Positions 1,418 to 12,206 of a DNA stretch of 36,625 nt are shown here, piece after piece. This stretch comes from Actinomycetota bacterium. GTDB taxonomy: Bacteria; Actinomycetota; Actinomycetes; Nanopelagicales; Nanopelagicaceae. Made by a program: the position numbers and the translations under genes. The DNA lies in NCBI GenBank assembly GCA_026392945.1, contig JAPLBB010000049.1, positions 1 to 36,625 on the forward strand, in the 5' to 3' direction. The stretch's first letter is position 1. Every line of letters starts with the position of its first letter. The notes beneath the pieces are model-generated. The model did not search any database. It saw only the letters and a list, made by a program, of their open reading frames with translations, and had not been told where the DNA came from.

Positions 1418-1696
1418 TTAGCTGGCTGAATCAGCTGGCTTTGGTTCCAAGTTTTCAATTGTTAATAAGCCTTCATTAATTTCACGAAGTGCAATTGATA
1501 ATGGCTTCTCGTGAACATAGGTCTCAACAAGTGGACCAACATATTCAAGTAAACCCTCGCCAAGTTGTGAGTAGTAGGCATTAATTTGACGAGCACGCTT
1601 TGCTGCGTAAAGTACCAAGCTGTATTTTGATCCAGCTTTTTCAAGCAATGCATCAATAGGTGGGTTAGTAATACCGTCTAGTGCTTGATTGGTCAT
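1418..1696 (-). CDS. rpoZ: DNA-directed RNA polymerase omega subunit
   Basis: Omega is the small subunit that helps assemble and stabilise core RNA polymerase by holding beta-prime. The 92-aa product has the family pattern: [20 protein letters not shown] at the N-terminus, the conserved AAKRARQIN helix near residue 32, and the C-terminal [14 protein letters not shown] segment typical of actinobacterial omega. The ATG at 1696 has a good Shine-Dalgarno (AAAGGGG, about 7 nt upstream). It lies 27 nt after the mihF-gmk stop and 10 nt before coaBC, which is the usual actinobacterial gmk-rpoZ-coaBC order. No separate promoter or terminator is evident in the short gaps. Confidence 0.96.
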
Positions 1697-1723: not shown

Positions 1724-2590
1724 TTAGCGAAGGGCTAAAGATACCAGTTCAGCCACTGATTGCTCTACTTGATGGTTAATCACTACATGATCAAACTCTG
1801 AGGCCGCTTGCAGCTCTTCTTTCGCCCGATCTAGGCGGGCTTGGGTGGAATGCTCAGATTCAGTGCCTCTATTTACCAACCTTGAAGTCAATTCCTCCCA
1901 GGAAGGCGGTTCGATAAAGACCAAAATTGCACTCTTTTTGTTTGTTCTAACCTGACGTGCACCATTTAATTCAATCTCTAGAATTACATTCTTGCCATCT
2001 AATAATGCATCTTCAACTGCTTGTTGTGGTGTTCCATACTTTGCTCCAGCAAAACTAGCCCATTCTAAAAATTCATTCTTTTTTATCATTTCTTCAAATT
2101 TTTCATCGCTAACAAAGTGATAGTCAATTCCATCAACCTCACCAGTGCGCATTTTTCTTGTTGTAGCAGAAATTGAAATCCAAAACCGATCATCGCTTCT
2201 TAATTTATTGGTAATTGTACTTTTACCTACACCGCTAGGTCCGGAGACAACAAGTAGCTTTCCACTTATGCGAGAGTTTTTCATCAGTAGAAACTCCTGC
2301 CTTAGTAGGTCTAGTTGTCGATGCCCAACACCACCAATTCTACGCGATGGTGAGATGCCGGTTCTTTCCATAATCACATCAGCTCTGGATTGGCCGATAC
2401 CCGGCACTGATTGCAGTAAATCAATTAATTTCATGCGGGCTATAGCTTTGCGCTCATCTTTAAAAAGGTCAAAGAAATAAATCTCACCTAGTGCAACCTG
2501 TTCCTTGACTCTTGCTCGTTCCTGCCTGGCGATTACGGCTTTTAGCCCAGCTTTTCTCCGAGAACGACGACTTAATCTAGGAGGCAACAT
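1724..2590 (-). CDS. gmk: In-frame fusion of actinobacterial integration host factor (mIHF) and guanylate kinase
   Basis: One open frame of 288 codons covers two proteins that are normally separate. Residues 1-102 match mIHF, the actinobacterial nucleoid protein: a basic N-terminal helix (RLSRRSRRKAGLKAVIARQE), then a helix-two-turn-helix DNA-binding part with LLQSVPGIGQSRADVIME and RRIGGVGHRQLDLL. Residues 103-288 are a full-length guanylate kinase (GMP to GDP): P-loop GPSGVGKST at 117-125, then SATTRKMRTGEVDGIDYHF, the GMP-binding region, and the lid arginines. I chose the ATG at 2590, 1 nt after the pyrF stop (TGATATG). It gives an mIHF-like N-terminus; a TTG 10 codons upstream would overlap pyrF and has no ribosome binding site. 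The old gmk start at Met103 keeps its own AGGAG, so free Gmk may also be made. Each part has normal family length. A sequencing error that removed a stop codon is the main alternative. Confidence 0.9.
   Translation of the reverse strand: MLPPRLSRRSRRKAGLKAVIARQERARVKEQVALGEIYFFDLFKDERKAIARMKLIDLLQSVPGIGQSRADVIMERTGISPSRRIGGVGHRQLDLLRQEFLLMKNSRISGKLLVVSGPSGVGKSTITNKLRSDDRFWISISATTRKMRTGEVDGIDYHFVSDEKFEEMIKKNEFLEWASFAGAKYGTPQQAVEDALLDGKNVILEIELNGARQVRTNKKSAILVFIEPPSWEELTSRLVNRGTESEHSTQARLDRAKEELQAASEFDHVVINHQVEQSVAELVSLALR
2282..2298 (-). promoter_or_regulatory. Internal ribosome binding site and ATG for guanylate kinase inside the mihF-gmk frame
   Basis: On the minus strand AGGAG (2298-2294) precedes an in-frame ATG (2284-2282) by 9 nt. 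The ATG is Met103 of the fused frame and lies 14 residues before the guanylate kinase P-loop, where a free-standing Gmk would start. The SD bases also encode the last mIHF residues (Arg-Gln-Glu). Initiation here would give a 186-aa Gmk of ordinary length. That the site is used is inference; its presence and spacing are seen directly. Confidence 0.55.
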
Positions 2591-2591
2591 A

Positions 2592-3284
2592 TCAGCCAAG
2601 AGTACTGGCGATTTGTTCAATTTTTTTTCGCATTTTTAAATCAGAGCCATCCCATAGCGAGGTAATTGGTCTGCCAATCACAACCAAATCTGCTCCGGCA
2701 GATATTGCTTGGCTAGGTGACATTATTCGTGCCTGATCACCAGCGGCATCGCCTTCAACTCTTACTCCGGGCGTTATTAAGGTAGCGGTAGTAGATAAAG
2801 AACGTAGTGCGCTTACTTCAAACGGAGAGCAAACTAAAGATGATGCCCCAGATGAAAGTGCCATCTGTGCCCAACTTTTTGTTGTTTCTTCAATACTATT
2901 TTTTTGGCCCATGGCAGCAAAATCAAGTTCGGAGAAAGATGTTAAAACTGTAACTGCAGTTATTGAACCATTCGGAAGTGCGTCTACCGCTGCCTTAATC
3001 ATTTTATTGCCACCAGCAGCGTGGACAGTCAAAAATTTTGGTGATAAAGATGCGACAGATTCGACTGCTCCCTTTACGGTATTTGGAATGTCATATAACT
3101 TGAGATCAAGAAATAATTCAAAATCACTCTCATCTCTTAGCCTTTCAATCCCTTTTGCACCATGGCGTAAGTAGAATTCCAATCCGATTTTAAAATGACT
3201 TATTGATTCCTTAGCAGCCTTAATCCAGCTAGCCGCTTGAGCAACTTCCTTTGTATCGAGTGCAAGAATTATTGGAAGCTTCAT
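2592..3284 (-). CDS. pyrF: Orotidine 5'-phosphate decarboxylase, short (type I) form
   Basis: PyrF decarboxylates OMP to UMP, the last step of de novo pyrimidine synthesis. The 230-aa protein has the catalytic Lys-Asp array in FLDLKLYDIPNTVKG (about residues 57-71), the N-terminal LALDT strand, VHAAGG, and the C-terminal phosphate-binding TPGVR, DQAR and VVIGRPIT motifs. Length and motif spacing match the E. coli/Bacillus type. The mycobacterial enzyme is longer (about 274 aa) and of the other subtype. The ATG overlaps the pyrD stop by one base (TAATG), so translation is probably coupled; the mihF-gmk start follows 1 nt after its stop. Confidence 0.95.
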   Translation of the reverse strand: MKLPIILALDTKEVAQAASWIKAAKESISHFKIGLEFYLRHGAKGIERLRDESDFELFLDLKLYDIPNTVKGAVESVASLSPKFLTVHAAGGNKMIKAAVDALPNGSITAVTVLTSFSELDFAAMGQKNSIEETTKSWAQMALSSGASSLVCSPFEVSALRSLSTTATLITPGVRVEGDAAGDQARIMSPSQAISAGADLVVIGRPITSLWDGSDLKMRKKIEQIASTLG

Positions 3285-4216
3285 TAAATCCCTCGATGAG
3301 CAAAACCGATTGCATCTCGAAAATCATTCAACCCATTTTTAGTCAGAAGTTGCGATAGCTCTTCTTTTATTTGCATTGCTGCATTTGGGTTACCGAAGGT
3401 AGCAGTTCCAACAGATACAGCACTTGCTCCTGCAAGAATTAATTCAAAGGCATCTTGTCCACTTGCAACACCACCCATGCCAACAATAGGTGTGTTCGGA
3501 AATGCTTGATGAACTTGATAAATCGCTCTAACTGCAACTGGCCTGATTGCCGGTCCGGATAATCCCCCAGTTTTACCAGCTAGTTTTGGCCTCATTGAGT
3601 TTGTGTCGATTACCATTCCCAAAAGAGTATTAATTAATGCCAAACCATCAACACCAGCATTTATAACCGCACCGGCAATCTCAACTATGTCAGTCACGTC
3701 CGGCGACAACTTCGCAATTATTGGGAGCTCTCCACCAATATTTCGTCTTACCGATTCAATAACTGCAACAGCAGTATCTGGATGACAAGCAAAAACTTGA
3801 CCACGATTTTCCACATTTGGGCAAGAAATATTTACTTCAACGGCACTAATACCAGAAAGTGCTCGCAACCTTCGGGCTAGTACGCCATACTCATCAACCG
3901 TTTCGCCAGCAATCGAAATAATAATTTTTGCTTGTTGTTCAATCAACCAAGGAATATCTTTCTCTAAAAATGTATCAATTCCTGGTCCTTGCAAGCCAAT
4001 TGAATTAAGCATGCCACTTGGCGTCTCCGCCATTCTAGGTGTTGCTCTGCCAGTACGAGGCTTAGTCATAATTGATTTAGTTACCACCGCGCCAAGCGAA
4101 CTTAGTGGGAAAAACTGTGAAAGTTCTTGTCCCGAGCTTGCGCAGCCACTTGCGGTAAAAATTGGGTTGGAGAATCTTTTACTGCCAATTTTTGTGGAGA
4201 AATCTAATGCGCTCAT
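3284..4216 (-). CDS. pyrD: Dihydroorotate dehydrogenase, class 1B catalytic subunit
   Basis: This FMN enzyme oxidises dihydroorotate to orotate. The 310-aa TIM-barrel protein carries EVNISCPNVENRG near residues 125-137. The Cys at the catalytic-base position marks class 1; the quinone-linked class 2 has Ser there. GTATFGNPN near the C-terminus is the FMN phosphate site. The pyrK gene lies immediately upstream (2-nt gap), so this is the class 1B heterotetramer that passes electrons through PyrK to NAD+. It has no N-terminal membrane extension, so it is cytosolic. The start is ATG 4216, and it overlaps pyrF by one base. Mycobacteria use an unlinked class 2 enzyme. Confidence 0.94.
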   Translation of the reverse strand: MSALDFSTKIGSKRFSNPIFTASGCASSGQELSQFFPLSSLGAVVTKSIMTKPRTGRATPRMAETPSGMLNSIGLQGPGIDTFLEKDIPWLIEQQAKIIISIAGETVDEYGVLARRLRALSGISAVEVNISCPNVENRGQVFACHPDTAVAVIESVRRNIGGELPIIAKLSPDVTDIVEIAGAVINAGVDGLALINTLLGMVIDTNSMRPKLAGKTGGLSGPAIRPVAVRAIYQVHQAFPNTPIVGMGGVASGQDAFELILAGASAVSVGTATFGNPNAAMQIKEELSQLLTKNGLNDFRDAIGFAHRGI

Positions 4217-4218
4217 AC

Positions 4219-5064
4219 CTATAACGCATCCAAAACAGTTTTACGATCCCAAATAATTTCTGAGCCATCCATTACGGGTCCATCAATACAGGTACGGACC
4301 ATCTTTATGCCATCCTCATGCTTGATTGGCACAACACAAGTCATGCAAACCCCAATTCCACAAGCCATTGCCTCTTCAACTGCGCATTGATGAGCAAGAT
4401 CAAATTCATCAGCAATCTTTGCAATTGCCGAAAGCATGCCCATGGGACCGCAGGAGTAAATTACCTCAGTTCCAAACTCACGAATTAACCTTGGAATAGC
4501 TTCGCTAATCTGTCCATGAATGCCAGCAGTACCATCATCAGTTGTCAAAGTTAATGAGGAAACACTTCGCTTGCCTTCAAGGGGTGCGTAAATCTTATTA
4601 GCTGTACTAGCACCAAGCACCATGTCGACTCGACATCCACGATTTTTAAGCAGTTCAGCAAGAGCGAAAAGTGGCGCAGATCCATAACCGCCGCCGATCA
4701 ACATTGTGTTTGCATTTGTCGTAGGAATTCCGAATGCAGTTCCTAGTGGACCAATTAAATCTACAAACTCTCCAATATTTCTGGCACACAACCATTTACT
4801 ACCTTCGCCATGTGGTGCAACTACTAACTCAATGCTGCCTCCCATTGGACCTTTATCAATTGCACGATAAATCGCAAAAGCTCTTCGTAAAATTAAAGCT
4901 GACTGGCTTCCACCAACTGAAATCGCAACAAAATTACCAGGTCGTGAATGGGCTGCCATATCTGCAACTGCGAAAACCATATGGTGATAGGGGCCTACTT
5001 TTTTATTACTAATCACCTCTGCATTAATTTGAGTTGCGTTCTTATTAATCTTCAGTGGAATCAT
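4219..5064 (-). CDS. pyrK: Dihydroorotate dehydrogenase electron-transfer subunit (FAD, 2Fe-2S)
   Basis: PyrK takes electrons from class 1B PyrD and reduces NAD+. The protein has a ferredoxin-reductase-like FAD domain (RPGNFVAISVG and RRAFAIYR in the first third), an NAD domain with IGGGYGSAPLFALAE, and a C-terminal cysteine cluster EAMACGIGVCMTC followed by RTCIDGPV, giving four ligands for a [2Fe-2S] centre. I start it at the ATG at 5064, which overlaps the carB stop as TAATG and gives 281 aa. A GTG four codons upstream is possible but would sit further inside carB. It is followed after 2 nt by pyrD, its partner. Confidence 0.93.
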   Translation of the reverse strand: MIPLKINKNATQINAEVISNKKVGPYHHMVFAVADMAAHSRPGNFVAISVGGSQSALILRRAFAIYRAIDKGPMGGSIELVVAPHGEGSKWLCARNIGEFVDLIGPLGTAFGIPTTNANTMLIGGGYGSAPLFALAELLKNRGCRVDMVLGASTANKIYAPLEGKRSVSSLTLTTDDGTAGIHGQISEAIPRLIREFGTEVIYSCGPMGMLSAIAKIADEFDLAHQCAVEEAMACGIGVCMTCVVPIKHEDGIKMVRTCIDGPVMDGSEIIWDRKTVLDAL

Positions 5065-8000
5065 TATTTCATCCACTCTTGCAGTGATTTGATGCCGAAA
5101 TCATCTTTTTGCAAAGCAGATATTCCAGCAACAGCTGCTTTAAAGCCTGGGATAGTAGTGATGCATGAGACAGACCTAGATACTGCGGCTGTTCTGATCA
5201 GAAAACCATCATGTCTTGAGCCTCGACCTAATGGTGTATTTATTACTAATTGGACTAACCCCTTGGTAATAACATCATTTGCCGACAGTTGGTTTGAATC
5301 ATTATCTGAATTTTTTCTCACTAGTTCTGATGGTACGCCTTTCTCAGAAAGAAATGCATTTGTTCCGGAGGTGCTATAAATCTTAAAACCTAAATTGTGC
5401 AAATCTCGTGCTGCACGCCAGCCAGGTTCTTTATCCCGCTCTGACAGCGAGATAAATACTGCACCAGACTTTGGTAGCGGACCGAATGCTGCAGTTTGAC
5501 TCTTGGCAAAAGCCAATCCAAAGTTGCTTGCAATACCCATTACTTCACCAGTTGATTTCATCTCAGGTCCAAGCACTGTGTCTATGCCAGTTCCATCAAC
5601 TCTTCTAAACCGATTAAATGGCAATACTGCTTCTTTAACTGAGACTCCATTTGCATGACCGTCACCTGACTTAGGCAAAATATTGCTGGTTCTTAAATCT
5701 GCAATCGGAACACCGGTTGATATCAATGCAGCTGCTTTTGCCAACTGAACCCCAGTTGCCTTTGCTACAAATGGAACTGTTCTCGACGCACGAGGGTTGG
5801 CCTCTAGAACATAAAGCTTTTGTGGACTTCCGCTGATTGCAAATTGAATATTGATCAGGCCTCGCACACCAACATCTTTGGCAATCTTCTCAGTAGCTTC
5901 TCTGATTTCATTTAATAACTCTTTGTTAAGAGAGATGCTTGGCAGAACACAAGCTGAATCGCCAGAATGAACTCCTGCCTCTTCAATATGTTCCATAACT
6001 CCAGCCAAATAAAGTTCTGTACCGTCATACAAAGCATCCACATCAATCTCAATTGCATCATCTAAAAACTTGTCAATTAATACTGGGTGATTTGGCGTGA
6101 CTGCAGTTGCGGCCTCAATAAATCCTCTTAGCGACTCTTCATCATAAACAATCTCCATGCCTCTGCCTCCTAATACATATGAGGGTCTTACTAACACTGG
6201 ATATCCAATACCGTTGGCGATCTGAGCCGCTTCCTCATATGAGTTCGCCATTCCATATTTAGGCGCCAGGAGATTGTTCTTCTTCAATATTTCACCAAAT
6301 GCTCCACGTTCCTCAGCTAAATCAATTGCGTCAGGCGATGTTCCAAGAATTTTTACTCCGGCCTCCATTAATCCTCTCGCCAAGCCCAGTGGAGTTTGTC
6401 CTCCTAATTGAGCGATGACGCCCTTAACCGGCCCAGCTGCTGATTCGGCAGCAATAATCTCCAATACATCTTCAAGCGTTAGTGGCTCGAAATAAAGTCG
6501 ATCCGAAGTGTCATAATCTGTCGAAACTGTTTCAGGATTACAATTGACCATAATTGTTTCATATCCAGCTTTGCGTAGTGCAAATGATGCGTGCACACAT
6601 GAGTAATCGAATTCAATTCCTTGCCCAATTCGGTTAGGCCCACTTCCCAAAATAATCACTGCTTCTTTAGTGCGGGGAAGAACTTCGCTCTCCTCATCGT
6701 AGGCCGAGTAATAATAAGGAGTAAGTGCCGCAAATTCACCCGCACAGGTATCGACAGTTTTATAAACCGGATGCAGACTAAAGCCAATTCTAGATTGTTT
6801 TATTTGAGCCTCTGGCACTTTTCTTAAATTAGCTATCTGCAAATCTGAAAAACCCATCATTTTTGAGGATTTAAGCAGATCTTTGGTTAGCTCACCGGAG
6901 TTAGCAATTTGATTTGCCTGAAGGTTAATCAAATTGATTTGCTCTAAAAACCATGGGTCAATTTTGGTTGCCTCAAATACCTCTTTGACGGTTGCTCCTA
7001 AATGCATTGCTAATTGAACCTGTTGCAATCTAAATTCGGCTGGAGTAACCATCTTTTTCATTAAATCAGAAAGATTCCCATCCTTCCAACTAAAACTTGC
7101 ACCGTTTTTTTCCAAAGAGCGAAGGGCCTTTTGTAAAGCTTCTGGAAAACTACGACCAATTGCCATCGCTTCCCCAACACTCTTCATCGTGGTGGTGAGC
7201 CTTGGGTCTGCCTCAGCAAATTTTTCGAAAGCAAATCTTGGAACCTTAACAACAACATAATCTAATGAAGGCTCAAATGAGGCTGGGGTTGATTTTGTAA
7301 TGTCGTTTTCAATCTCATCTAATGTGTAACCGATTGCCAATTTTGTAGCAATTTTTGCAATTGGAAATCCAGTAGCTTTTGAGGCGAGGGCTGATGATCT
7401 TGACACTCTTGGATTCATCTCGATAACAATTATTCGGCCATCGGTTGGATTAACCGCAAATTGGATGTTGCACCCACCGGTTGCTACTCCAACCTCTCGA
7501 ATAATTAAAATCGAAAGGTCTCGTAACTTTTGATACTCAACATCGGTAAGTGTCATGGCAGGTGCCACTGTTACTGAGTCTCCGGTGTGCACTCCCATTG
7601 GATCAATATTCTCAATGCTGCAAACGATTACAACATTGTCTTTGTGATCGCGCATAACCTCGAGCTCATACTCTTTCCAACCAATTATTGACTCTTCTAG
7701 GAGAACTTCAGTAGTTGGACTGTGCCTTAGCCCAGCACCAGCAATTTGATGAAGATCTGATTCGTTATATGCAATTCCAGATCCAAGTCCTCCCATGGTG
7801 AATGAGGGGCGAACAACTACTGGATATTTAAGTTCTGTAGCAGCAGCTAAGCAATCATCCATGGAATGACAAATTTTTGATTTAGCCGACTCTCCCCCAA
7901 TAGTTTCTACAATTTTTTTAAATACTTCTCTATCTTCACCGCGCTTAATAGCTTCAACATCAGCACCAATTAATTTGGTTCCATATTTTTCAAATGACCC

Positions 8001-8315
8001 ACGCTCAAATAAGGCCATTGCTGCGTTTAGAGCAGTTTGCCCACCAAGTGTGGCTAAAACTGCACTTGGATTTTCTTTTTCCAATATTTTTTCAATTACT
8101 TCAGGTGTGATTGGCTCTATATACGTAGCATCTGCAAACTCTGGATCAGTCATAATTGTTGCTGGGTTGGAATTGATTAAAATAACTCTAATTCCTTCAC
8201 TACGTAGCACCCGGCAAGCTTGTGTTCCAGAGTAATCAAACTCGCATGCTTGACCAATAACAATCGGGCCACTGCCAATTACTAGAACACTTGTTATGGA
8301 GTTATCTCTAGGCAT
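5064..8315 (-). CDS. carB: Carbamoyl-phosphate synthase large subunit
   Basis: CarB uses ammonia delivered by CarA, bicarbonate and two ATP to make carbamoyl phosphate for pyrimidines and arginine. The 1083-aa length is normal. Two homologous ATP-grasp halves are visible: the first begins with [20 protein letters not shown] near residue 10, the second with [20 protein letters not shown] near residue 555. Glycine-rich ATP loops ([12 protein letters not shown] and [10 protein letters not shown]) follow in each. The C-terminal 140 residues form an MGS-like allosteric domain ([19 protein letters not shown]). The start ATG overlaps the end of carA by 8 nt, and the stop overlaps pyrK, consistent with tight translational coupling. 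No damage is seen. Confidence 0.98.
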
Positions 8316-9456
8316 TTTCTTCCTTTAAACCTAATTTTGGAGATTGCATTAACTGAACAAATCTTTCAAACAAATAAGCAGCATCGTGTGGGCCGGCAGC
8401 AGATTCTGGGTGATACTGCACTGAAAAAGCTGGAACTGAGATCATTTCTAATCCTTCAATTACTGAATCGTTCAGCGATATATGAGTTACCCGGCCGCTT
8501 CCGTAAACAGTGTGGAACTCATTTTCCTTTGGCGCAGCTACTGCGAAACCATGATTATGAGCTGTGATCTCAACTTTTCCAGTAGTTAAATCAATTACTG
8601 GTTGATTAATACCGCGATGACCAAAAGGAAGTTTGTAAGTTTCAAAACCTAATGCCCGTCCAAGTATTTGATGGCCAAAACAGATTCCAAAAAATGGAAT
8701 CTCCTCAACCAAAACTTTTCTAACCAGCTCAACAATATCCACCATTGCAGCAGGGTCTCCCGGCCCATTTGATAAAAAGACCCCATCTGGTGAGAGCGCC
8801 TTTATCTGTTCAAAGGTTGTTGTAAGAGGTAGGACATGTACTTCTATACCAAGATTTGCCATGGCCTTTGGTGTTGCGCCCTTAATTCCTAAATCAATTG
8901 AAGCTACCTTAAATCTCGTTGCTATCCCTTTTGGTGGATAAACAACATAAGGTTCTTTAGTAGATACATCCGCTGCTAAAAATGCCCCACTCATTGGCGA
9001 AGTTTTACGAACCCGAACAACCATCTCTTCTCGCGTTAATTTAGTATCACTGAAAATTCCAACTCTCATCGCTCCACGATCACGCAAATGCCTAGTAAGT
9101 GCTCTGGTGTCAACCCCCTGAATACCAACAACCTGCGAGTCAATTAATTCCTGTTCAAGACTTTTTTCACTTCGCCAATTACTAGAAATAGGCGATGGAT
9201 TTCTAACAACAAAGCCTGAAACCCAAATCTTCTTTGATTCTTCATCACTCTTATTCATACCGGTGTTACCTATATGCGGGGCTGTCATTACAACTATTTG
9301 CTTGTGGTAGGAAGGGTCAGTTAACGTTTCTTGATACCCAGTCATACCAGTTGAAAACACAGCTTCACCAAATGTTTCACCACTTGCTGCCCAGGAGTGA
9401 CCTTCAAAAATCCGGCCATCATCTAGCACTAGGTATGCAGTTGATCGATTATCCAT
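8308..9456 (-). CDS. carA: Carbamoyl-phosphate synthase small subunit (glutaminase)
   Basis: CarA hydrolyses glutamine and channels ammonia to CarB. The N-terminal CarA-specific domain has [32 protein letters not shown] and [16 protein letters not shown]. The C-terminal class I amidotransferase domain contains the nucleophile Cys in [12 protein letters not shown] and the His-Glu pair in VQYHPES. I chose the ATG at 9456 (382 aa) because it gives the usual short N-terminus before the LVLDDG strand and overlaps the pyrC stop by 8 nt. The frame stays open a further 19 codons upstream, but those residues do not resemble the family. It overlaps carB by 8 nt. Confidence 0.96.
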
Positions 9457-10741
9457 GATTACCATTAACAATCGCACGGTTGGATAAAACCAATTTACCG
9501 TTATAGATAACATCCGAAATAACCGCCGGTAAATTCATACCTTCAAACGGAGTGTTCTTACTCTTTGATTTTAGATTATTCCGCTCAACCTGCCATGACC
9601 CAGCAGTATCAACGAGAATTAAGTTAGCCGGTGAATTTTCGGCAAACACCTGACCTTGTTGCTTGTAACCTGCAATTTGTGCTGGCTTAATAGACATACG
9701 ATCTACTAAATCCGTCCAGCTCATTAATTTACTTTCGATCATGGTCTTAACCACCACTGAGAAAGCAGTTTCAAGTCCGACCATTCCAAATGCTGCTGCC
9801 TGCCATTCACAATCTTTATCCTCTGCTGGGTGTGGTGCATGATCAGTTGCAACAATATCAATGATCCCCTCAGCCAGGCCTTCCCTGAGAGCCATCACAT
9901 CTTTTTGAGTACGAAGTGGCGGGTTTACCTTGTAAATTGGATCATAGTTCTCAACTAAGTCATCAGTTAGTAATAAATGGTGCGGTGTAACTTCAGCCGT
10001 AACTTGAATGCCGCGCTGTTTTGCCCATCGAACTAACTCAACTCCGCCAGCTGTGGTTAGGTGGCAAATGTGCAATCTTGATTGCACATGCTCTGCTAAC
10101 AAAATATCCCTTGCAATAATTGCCTCTTCAGCAATTGCTGGCCAACCTGGCAAACCAATTCGAGCTGAGACACTTCCTTCATTCATTTGGGCATTAATAG
10201 TTAATCTTGGCTCTTGCGCATGCTGGGCAATAATTCCATTAAATGTTTTAACATACTCAAGGGCTCTTCGCATGATTAATGGATCAGATACACATTTACC
10301 ATCATCGCTAAATATTCTCACTCCAGCAATTGAATCTGCCATTGCCCCAAGCTCAGCTAATTGTTCACCATTTAAACCTTTAGTTACCGCACCAATTGGA
10401 TTAACATCACAGAGACCAGCTTCCTTACCAAGTCGATAAATTTGTTCAACCACACCAGCGGTATCGGCAACTGGATTTGTATTAGCCATTGATGAGATTG
10501 CGGTGTAGCCACCAGCAACTGCTGCCTGGGATCCAGTAAGGACTGTCTCTGAATCTTCCCGGCCAGGTTCACGTAAATGGGTGTGCAGATCAACTAAACC
10601 AGGTAACAAAAGCTTTCCGGTAGCGTCAATTCCATCTGTTTGCTTGCCAGATGATTTACTTAATTTTGATATCACACCATTATTGATCTCAAGATCAACC
10701 AAAGAATTATCCGTTAACTTCGCATTATTAATCTTGATCAT
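9449..10741 (-). CDS. pyrC: Dihydroorotase (class I)
   Basis: PyrC cyclises carbamoyl aspartate to dihydroorotate. The 430-aa protein belongs to the amidohydrolase family. The metal-binding motif [10 protein letters not shown] is near residues 51-60, with the two zinc histidines and the substrate-binding Arg. Further ligands lie in QHAQEP, CHLTT and [16 protein letters not shown] provides the Asp that bridges the metals in class I enzymes, in place of a carboxylated lysine. The ATG overlaps the pyrB stop in ATGA, and the 3' end overlaps carA. It sits in the standard pyrR-pyrB-pyrC-carA order, and no catalytic ligand is missing. Confidence 0.97.
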
Positions 10742-11688
10742 TTAGTTTCACCAATCTGTGCGCCGCCGAGTAATTCATACAAAACAGCCATCCGTACTGC
10801 CACACCATTCTTAACCTGATCAATTATTACTGATTTAAGATCATCCGCACTCTCTGCTGAAATTTCAAGCCCTCTGTTCATTGGGCCCGGATGCATAACA
10901 ATTGCGTTTTTAGAAAGCTTCGACAATCGAGCCGAATTAAGGCCATAGCGTCGTGAGTACTCACGTTCAGTTGGAAAGAATGAATCTGCCATTCGCTCGA
11001 GCTGAATCCGTAGCATCATAACGACATCGCAATTTTCAATTTCACTGTCCAGATCATATGAAATTTTTACTGGCCATTCATTAACACCAACTGGTAGCAG
11101 GGTAGGTGGTGCGACCAAAGTTATCTGAGCGCCTAATTTTGTTAACAGTATTACATTGCTTCGAGCAACTCTTGAGTGAAGTATGTCGCCAACTATTAAG
11201 ACTTTAACTCCAGTTAAATCTTCTTGATCACTTCTTAAGTGTTGCTTTATTGTAAAAGCATCTAGTAAAGCTTGAGTTGGATGTTCGTGAGTGCCATCAC
11301 CGGCATTGATAATTGCTGCTTGGATCCACTGAGTATCAGCTAAACGTTTTGCAGCTCCGGAGCTGCCATGCCTGATTACTACGGCATCTGCTCCCATTGC
11401 CTGCAAAGTTTGGGCGGTGTCTTTTAAGCTTTCTCCCTTGCTAACTGATGAACCTTTTGCTGAAAAGTTAATTACATCAGCAGATAATCTTTTTGCCGCG
11501 GTTTCAAAACTTATCCGAGTTCTTGTGGAATCTTCGAAAAACAGATTAACCACAGTTTTGCCTCGTAGCGTCGGTAGTTTTTTATTTGGCCCATCGGTAA
11601 TTGCAGCTAACTCCTTGGCAGTTGATAGAAGATTTAACGCCTCTTGCTTTGTTAAATCTGCGGTGGAAAGTAGGTGTCCGGAGATCAT
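10738..11688 (-). CDS. pyrB: Aspartate carbamoyltransferase catalytic chain
   Basis: PyrB condenses carbamoyl phosphate with aspartate, the committed step of pyrimidine synthesis. The 316-aa protein has the carbamoyl-phosphate motif [13 protein letters not shown] at residues 50-62, the second-domain contact [12 protein letters not shown], and the C-terminal MHPGPMNRG. No regulatory chain gene (pyrI) is present nearby, so it is probably an unregulated trimer, with control exercised by PyrR at the RNA level. It overlaps pyrR upstream and pyrC downstream, both as ATGA. Confidence 0.97.
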
Positions 11689-12206
11689 TTGATCAACTCC
11701 ACAAGATCCTCATTGTCATACTCTGAAAGATGAACCTTTACGCTCTCACTAATTGAGGTGGGAATATTTTTGCCAACGTAATCTGCTCTGATTGGTAACT
11801 CGCGATGACCACGGTCAACAAGTACTGCAAGCTGAACTGTTTTTGGCCGGCCCAATTCGCCAATTGCATCAAGAGCTGCACGAATAGTTCTGCCAGAGAA
11901 CAAGACATCATCTACTAAAACTAAATCTTTGCCTTCGATTCCACCAGGCGGCAACTTTGTTGTTAGGAGCGGTTTAGGGGGCCGAAGTCTTAGATCATCT
12001 CTATGCAGAGTAATATCTAAAACACCGGTTGCTACCGGTCCTTCGATCTCGGTGATGAATCCACAAATTCGGTCAGCCAGATAGGCGCCGCGGGTTGGAA
12101 TACCCATTAAAACTAAATTATTGATTCCTTGATTGTGTTCGATAATTTCATGTGAAATGCGTTTGATAGCCCGATCGATATCGGCGCCAGATAACAAAAT
12201 ACCCAT
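11685..12206 (-). CDS. pyrR: PyrR, uridine-nucleotide-sensing regulator of the pyr operon
   Basis: PyrR is an RNA-binding regulator with a phosphoribosyltransferase fold and, in many species, minor uracil phosphoribosyltransferase activity. In UMP/UTP-rich cells it binds a conserved hairpin in pyr mRNA. The 173-aa protein has the PRPP-binding motif [18 protein letters not shown] in the middle and [15 protein letters not shown] in the first third, plus a conserved basic region ([11 protein letters not shown]). The ATG at 12206 has a strong AAGGAG. That Shine-Dalgarno is part of a PyrR-type hairpin, so the gene probably represses its own translation. It heads the pyr operon and overlaps pyrB by ATGA. 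Confidence 0.96.

Follow-up and report, generated by a model that had tools for sequence, protein, structure and literature searches.

The closest described relatives of this locus are the actinobacterial IHF proteins, mIHF (Rv1388) and sIHF (SCO1480), and bacterial guanylate kinases (Gmk) such as Rv1389 of Mycobacterium tuberculosis. In M. tuberculosis, mihF, gmk, and rpoZ are arranged in this order as separate genes of one operon, and the abundance of mIHF places it in the top ten proteins (PMC6155035). The native mIHF of M. smegmatis is essential, and its replacement by fusions with EGFP, HaloTag, or other partners leaves growth near normal (PMC10028186). Mycobacterial mIHF stays functional with a fluorescent protein or HaloTag at its C-terminus, so that cargo is tolerated at this end (PMC10028186).

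The window, the whole stretch of 36,625 nucleotides analysed here, contains a gene in which the two proteins are joined in one reading frame. Its mIHF half belongs to the same H2TH family as mIHF and sIHF, is of the same length, and lies at the same place between pyrF and gmk. It aligns end to end with Streptomyces coelicolor SCO1480 (4itq/6bek) and with mIHF (6tob). It differs from separate mIHF proteins in being joined to Gmk, in its lower profile score (83 bits against ~125–150 in most of them), and in lacking the third arginine of the motif RRxRGLG. The Gmk half is a complete domain, in which the P-loop, TTR..R..E, and YGT blocks are conserved. Unlike the M. tuberculosis enzyme (1s4q/1z8f/1znw), which is encoded by a separate gene (PMC6155035), it carries a predicted DNA-binding protein of 102 aa at its N-terminus. 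The earlier note on this DNA knew of no described example, and likewise no description of an mIHF-Gmk fusion was found in the open full-text literature. The NCBI curators have classed actino_IHF as an equivalog domain, and joined proteins may be known to them.

The mihF-gmk gene of the window

Table 1. Position of the fused gene, its parts, and its neighbours in the window.
Feature	Position	Strand	Remarks
mihF-gmk fusion gene	1724..2590	minus	288 aa, 32.5 kDa; ATG 2590-2588, stop 1726-1724
mIHF domain, 102 aa	2285..2590	minus	residues 1-102; H2TH nucleoid protein; NF041260 and PF22525
Guanylate kinase domain, 186 aa	1727..2284	minus	residues 103-288; TIGR03263
Linker, last mIHF helix to first Gmk strand	2257..2281	minus	AlphaFold: helix 90-104, strand 112-116
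Shine-Dalgarno sequence AGGAG	2294..2298	minus	inside last mIHF helix; 9 bases before in-frame ATG
Internal ATG	2282..2284	minus	presumed old gmk start, probably giving free Gmk (20.8 kDa); conserved in genus
pyrF	2592..3284	minus	stop one base ahead of mIHF ATG
rpoZ	1418..1696	minus	directly downstream of fusion gene

The 288 codons are open, with no stop between the mIHF and Gmk parts, and the split into 102 and 186 aa is exact. In an NCBIfam profile search, the 288-aa protein matches actino_IHF (NF041260) at 83.4 bits, above the cut-off of 60, and the same protein matches guanyl_kin (TIGR03263, an equivalog) at 233.4 bits, above the cut-off of 160.45. Pfam agrees with NCBIfam, the H2TH domain PF22525 being found at 62 bits (cut-off 27). 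The frame and both NCBIfam profiles bear out the earlier reading of a complete mIHF and a complete Gmk in a single frame. The predicted pI is 11.4 for the mIHF domain, which is strongly basic, and 5.9 for the Gmk domain.

In the complete single-contig genomes of the genus, mihF-gmk is the sole copy of each domain. Complete genomes beyond the genus likewise have one mIHF match and one Gmk match each. Both domains are under purifying selection, with omega of ~0.06 for mIHF and ~0.09 for Gmk in the four usable pairs, beyond which dN/dS is saturated.

The AlphaFold model has a mean pLDDT of 92 overall and for both domains. The mIHF part is modelled as an all-helical bundle, whose last helix (residues 90–104) holds the internal start, and Gmk begins at residue 112. 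At a pTM of 0.67, the relative arrangement of the two domains is uncertain. In the Foldseek comparison, M. tuberculosis Gmk is ranked first (1z8f/1s4q). The residues P118, G122, K123, T143, R145, R148, E151, and E176 are invariant across the 31 rows of an alignment in which the stops of separate relatives were read through, purely to keep the rows colinear. The P-loop of other genera is GPGGVGKG. Neither the sequence nor the length of the linker is consistent across fusions. Because this is the sole gmk found in the complete genomes of the genus, it presumably has GMP kinase activity, and the fusion would thus carry an active guanylate kinase.

The fused gene belongs to the last part of a pyrimidine operon with the order pyrR-pyrB-pyrC-carA-carB-pyrK-pyrD-pyrF-[mihF.gmk]-rpoZ-coaBC. 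This is the genomic place expected for mIHF, after pyrF and next to gmk and rpoZ. Further upstream in the same operon (3284-12206, minus strand), the pairs pyrR/pyrB, pyrB/pyrC, and carA/carB overlap by a few bases and are still separate genes.

Distribution and origin of the fusion

A real, widespread, and recurrent gene fusion is present at this locus. The window genome is fragmented (69 contigs, 85% complete), and a sequencing or assembly error masking a stop codon might be suspected in it. The alignment of relatives, which the earlier note had proposed as a check on such an error, speaks against this. In the window's genus (g1), all 20 readable loci spanning the junction share the unbroken fused frame, at 65–84% identity, and so neither chance nor error explains the frame. 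Three of these loci are from complete single-contig genomes, and the gene is fused across two families. The artefact is rejected on these grounds, and its probability is practically nil. Named near relatives of the window are SCGC AAA278-I18, AAA028-A23, and BACL4 (acI records), which we take to be acI-B, Nanopelagicus.

In the family of the window (f1), 131 of the 150 sampled loci and 11 of the 17 genera are fused, and separate mihF and gmk are seen in the genera g5, g9, g10, g12, g14, and g17. In another family, f36, 138 genomes have a match, and the fusion is present in 129 of them. Family f36 is almost certainly Microbacteriaceae, as a 4.5 kb stretch of one member shows 77% DNA identity with a Microbacteriaceae record. 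The third family is f34, where the fusion is seen in g103 (4/4) and in five species of g117; the latter genus (L276-L285) holds fused and separate species side by side. The matches listed from the class sample of 395 genomes add no other family in which the fusion is unbroken.

Some record names in the collection are to be read with caution, among them the Pontimonas label of L084. The name looks wrong for a metagenome-assembled genome titled Bifidobacterium breve (L069), which is related to acI at 77% identity, and for records named Sanguibacter, Xylanimonas, and Schaalia (L070-L074), in which the mihF-gmk loci are nearly identical.

On the tree of mIHF plus Gmk, the label fused or separate needs at least four changes: in f36, in g103 of f34, and two in f1. 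A larger Gmk tree including g117 needs six. Early-branching genera of f1 are separate, and g10 and g17 are nested among fused genera, which would imply either a later split or that the fusion occurred twice. Judging from these trees, the fusion has originated at least three times independently.

Where relatives keep mihF and gmk apart, the ends of the two overlap or lie almost side by side, the junction being TGATG in g10, ATGA in parts of g17, and GTGA in f26. The genus g117 offers a natural before-and-after of the fusion. Its separate species have ATGA, TTGA, or GTGA stop/start overlaps. In its fused species, the gmk start is gone, and the alignment around this place is changed by about one base. 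These facts indicate that the fusion arose by a small frame change and not by simple loss of a stop. The earlier note had suggested a tolerated loss of a stop codon. As a mechanism this does not agree with the change of about one base at the stop/start overlap in g117, and a one-off loss is also at odds with a fusion that has several origins and is fixed in most of f1 and nearly all of f36. It can be considered that two neighbouring operon genes, with little or no gap or with a stop/start overlap, would become a single frame by one such small change. For the window's own lineage, which is too old to show the joining event, we infer the same origin.

The presumed old gmk start inside the frame

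In Escherichia coli infB, in-frame internal initiation generates a full-length and a short form from one gene. The arrangement in the window is alike in that a Shine-Dalgarno (SD) sequence and a start codon lie within a longer frame, in the same reading frame. It is different in that the short form would be a whole enzyme, formerly the product of an independent downstream gene, and the use of the start is predicted.

An SD and a start are present at the junction in 20 of 20 genomes of the genus, compared with at most 5 of 20 in any of 41 control windows in the same genes. In g7 they are seen in 22 of 27, against at most 10 in 41 control windows. They are at the background level in g16 and g3, and g15 is ambiguous. 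The control-window test retains the relatedness within the genus. Shuffles of synonymous codons, which ignore it, reach 9 at most, compared with the 18 that were observed. The anti-SD of the genus is canonical.

Codon -19, relative to the P-loop, has G as its last base in each of the 20 genus genomes, although the residue that it encodes varies between Q, E, K, and R. At codon -18, GAG is found in 19 of the 20, and at codon -17 all 20 have TTT. An ATG at -14 is seen in ten genomes, and the remaining ten all have TTG at -15. This TTG is seen in 10 of 10 genomes without the ATG but in 1 of 10 with it (Fisher p=1.2e-4, relatedness ignored).

The gmk SD and start inside the frame appear to be kept by selection in the window's genus, and this conservation makes both the fusion and free Gmk likely products. 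In acI-B/Nanopelagicus, the old SD and start would drive a free 21 kDa Gmk beside the 32 kDa fusion, and internal initiation of this kind is the most likely state of the window's genus. The interpretation given in the earlier note stands in part, the single frame for both domains being right; the retained gmk start, found in 20 of 20 genus genomes, had been overlooked there.

Six g16 loci, four g3 loci, and most f36 loci contain no start codon near the junction. In such lineages, which include many Planktophila-like and Microbacteriaceae members, the fusion is predicted to be obligate, as the sole form of the protein.

The mIHF half and the role of the fusion

The window has RRIGGVG at residues 83-89 (~2344-2324, minus strand) in place of RRxRGLG, a motif that is a common trait of most separate family members and not a curated criterion. 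Mutation work on M. tuberculosis IHF has reportedly placed DNA binding on these arginines. Position 4 is Arg or Lys in 72 of 80 separate genes versus 7 of 159 fused genes. Three fusion lineages of independent origin (f1, f36, and g103 of f34) have Gly, Ala, or Gln there, and Arg or Lys is still kept in the young fusions of g117. All eight separate genes without it belong to g17, which is itself among fused genera. The informative independent pairs of arginine loss and fusion all point one way, and the association is not significant because only three such pairs are supported. The NF041260 scores also fall, from ~125–150 bits in most separate genes to 68–87 bits in some fused lineages.

In several f36 loci (L193, L194, L196-L198, L200, L201, and L203; genera g156, g159, g224, g215, and g210), gmk lies right after pyrF or nearly so. 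Across the whole genomes of these members, several of which are complete, nothing scores as mIHF above the curated cut-off. It seems that some Microbacteriaceae have lost mIHF altogether and kept Gmk. NF041260 has no match in the sampled genomes of family f5 (G204, G231, G248, G264, G279, and G291), which may be a further lineage without mIHF. The repeated loss of the arginine and the later loss of mIHF suggest that a relaxed or changed role of mIHF would fit better than strong selection for tethering.

If tethering were selected, mIHF would anchor Gmk on the chromosome to supply GDP and GTP close to replication and transcription, and this would be why the fusion is kept. This is consistent with a fusion that arose independently three times or more, was maintained for long, and is obligate in many lineages, with the strong purifying selection on both domains, and with the mIHF part being predicted as strongly basic. 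However, 152 of 159 fused genes no longer have the arginine, the mIHF scores have dropped in some fused lineages, several Microbacteriaceae gave up mIHF but not Gmk, and the window's genus retains a predicted start for untethered Gmk. Selected tethering is rather unlikely. It can be speculated that a gene fused at least three times became a two-product gene, where a lineage-specific internal start sets the ratio of DNA-bound to free Gmk and mIHF was altered alike across lineages; this too is unlikely. The frame might also be mainly a coupling device, or the polypeptide might be cleaved, with separate mIHF and Gmk as the working products. The internal start conserved in g1 and g7 agrees with this, but many genes of g16, g3, and f36 have no start codon near the junction, and free mIHF would require cleavage, which makes such an explanation very doubtful.

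A neutral fusion is a real possibility, though we give it somewhat less than an even chance. In this view, the joining was an accident within a compact, overlapping operon, and the product is tolerated without gain. The stop/start overlaps and tiny gaps at the junction of separate relatives, the inconsistent linker, and the functional C-terminal fusions of mIHF (PMC10028186) are all compatible with it. On the other hand, the overlapping pyr and car pairs of the window stayed separate, yet mihF and gmk were fused repeatedly and remained fused.

The reading that we consider probable is a two-domain mIHF-Gmk protein that arose by frame joining of operon genes, with both the fusion and free Gmk made in the window's genus and with weak tethering. 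The product would consist of an mIHF-type DNA-binding domain, a short linker, and an active guanylate kinase, and would be the only source of both in the cell. DNA binding by the mIHF half is probably weak and transient, so that Gmk would be on the nucleoid part-time, any benefit of this being conjectural. The fusion, its single copy, its recurrence, and the conserved internal start are read in the sequences, from which the two products, the DNA binding, and the lack of strong tethering are surmised.

In mycobacteria, mIHF is essential and very abundant, and the fused families stand in contrast to this. Because mIHF occurs in at least two large families only as the front end of Gmk, in nearly all members, its dose, mobility, and role there cannot match those in the model organisms. 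Given the abundance of mIHF in M. tuberculosis and its fixed ratio to Gmk in the fusion, the dosage of either mIHF or Gmk must have really changed, which counts against the reading preferred here. If the internal start does set the ratio of DNA-bound to free Gmk, GTP supply would be linked to the chromosome state. The conserved internal start would be a clear example of an old gene start that persists within a fused gene, and the lineages without mIHF are a natural test of the purpose of this nucleoid protein.
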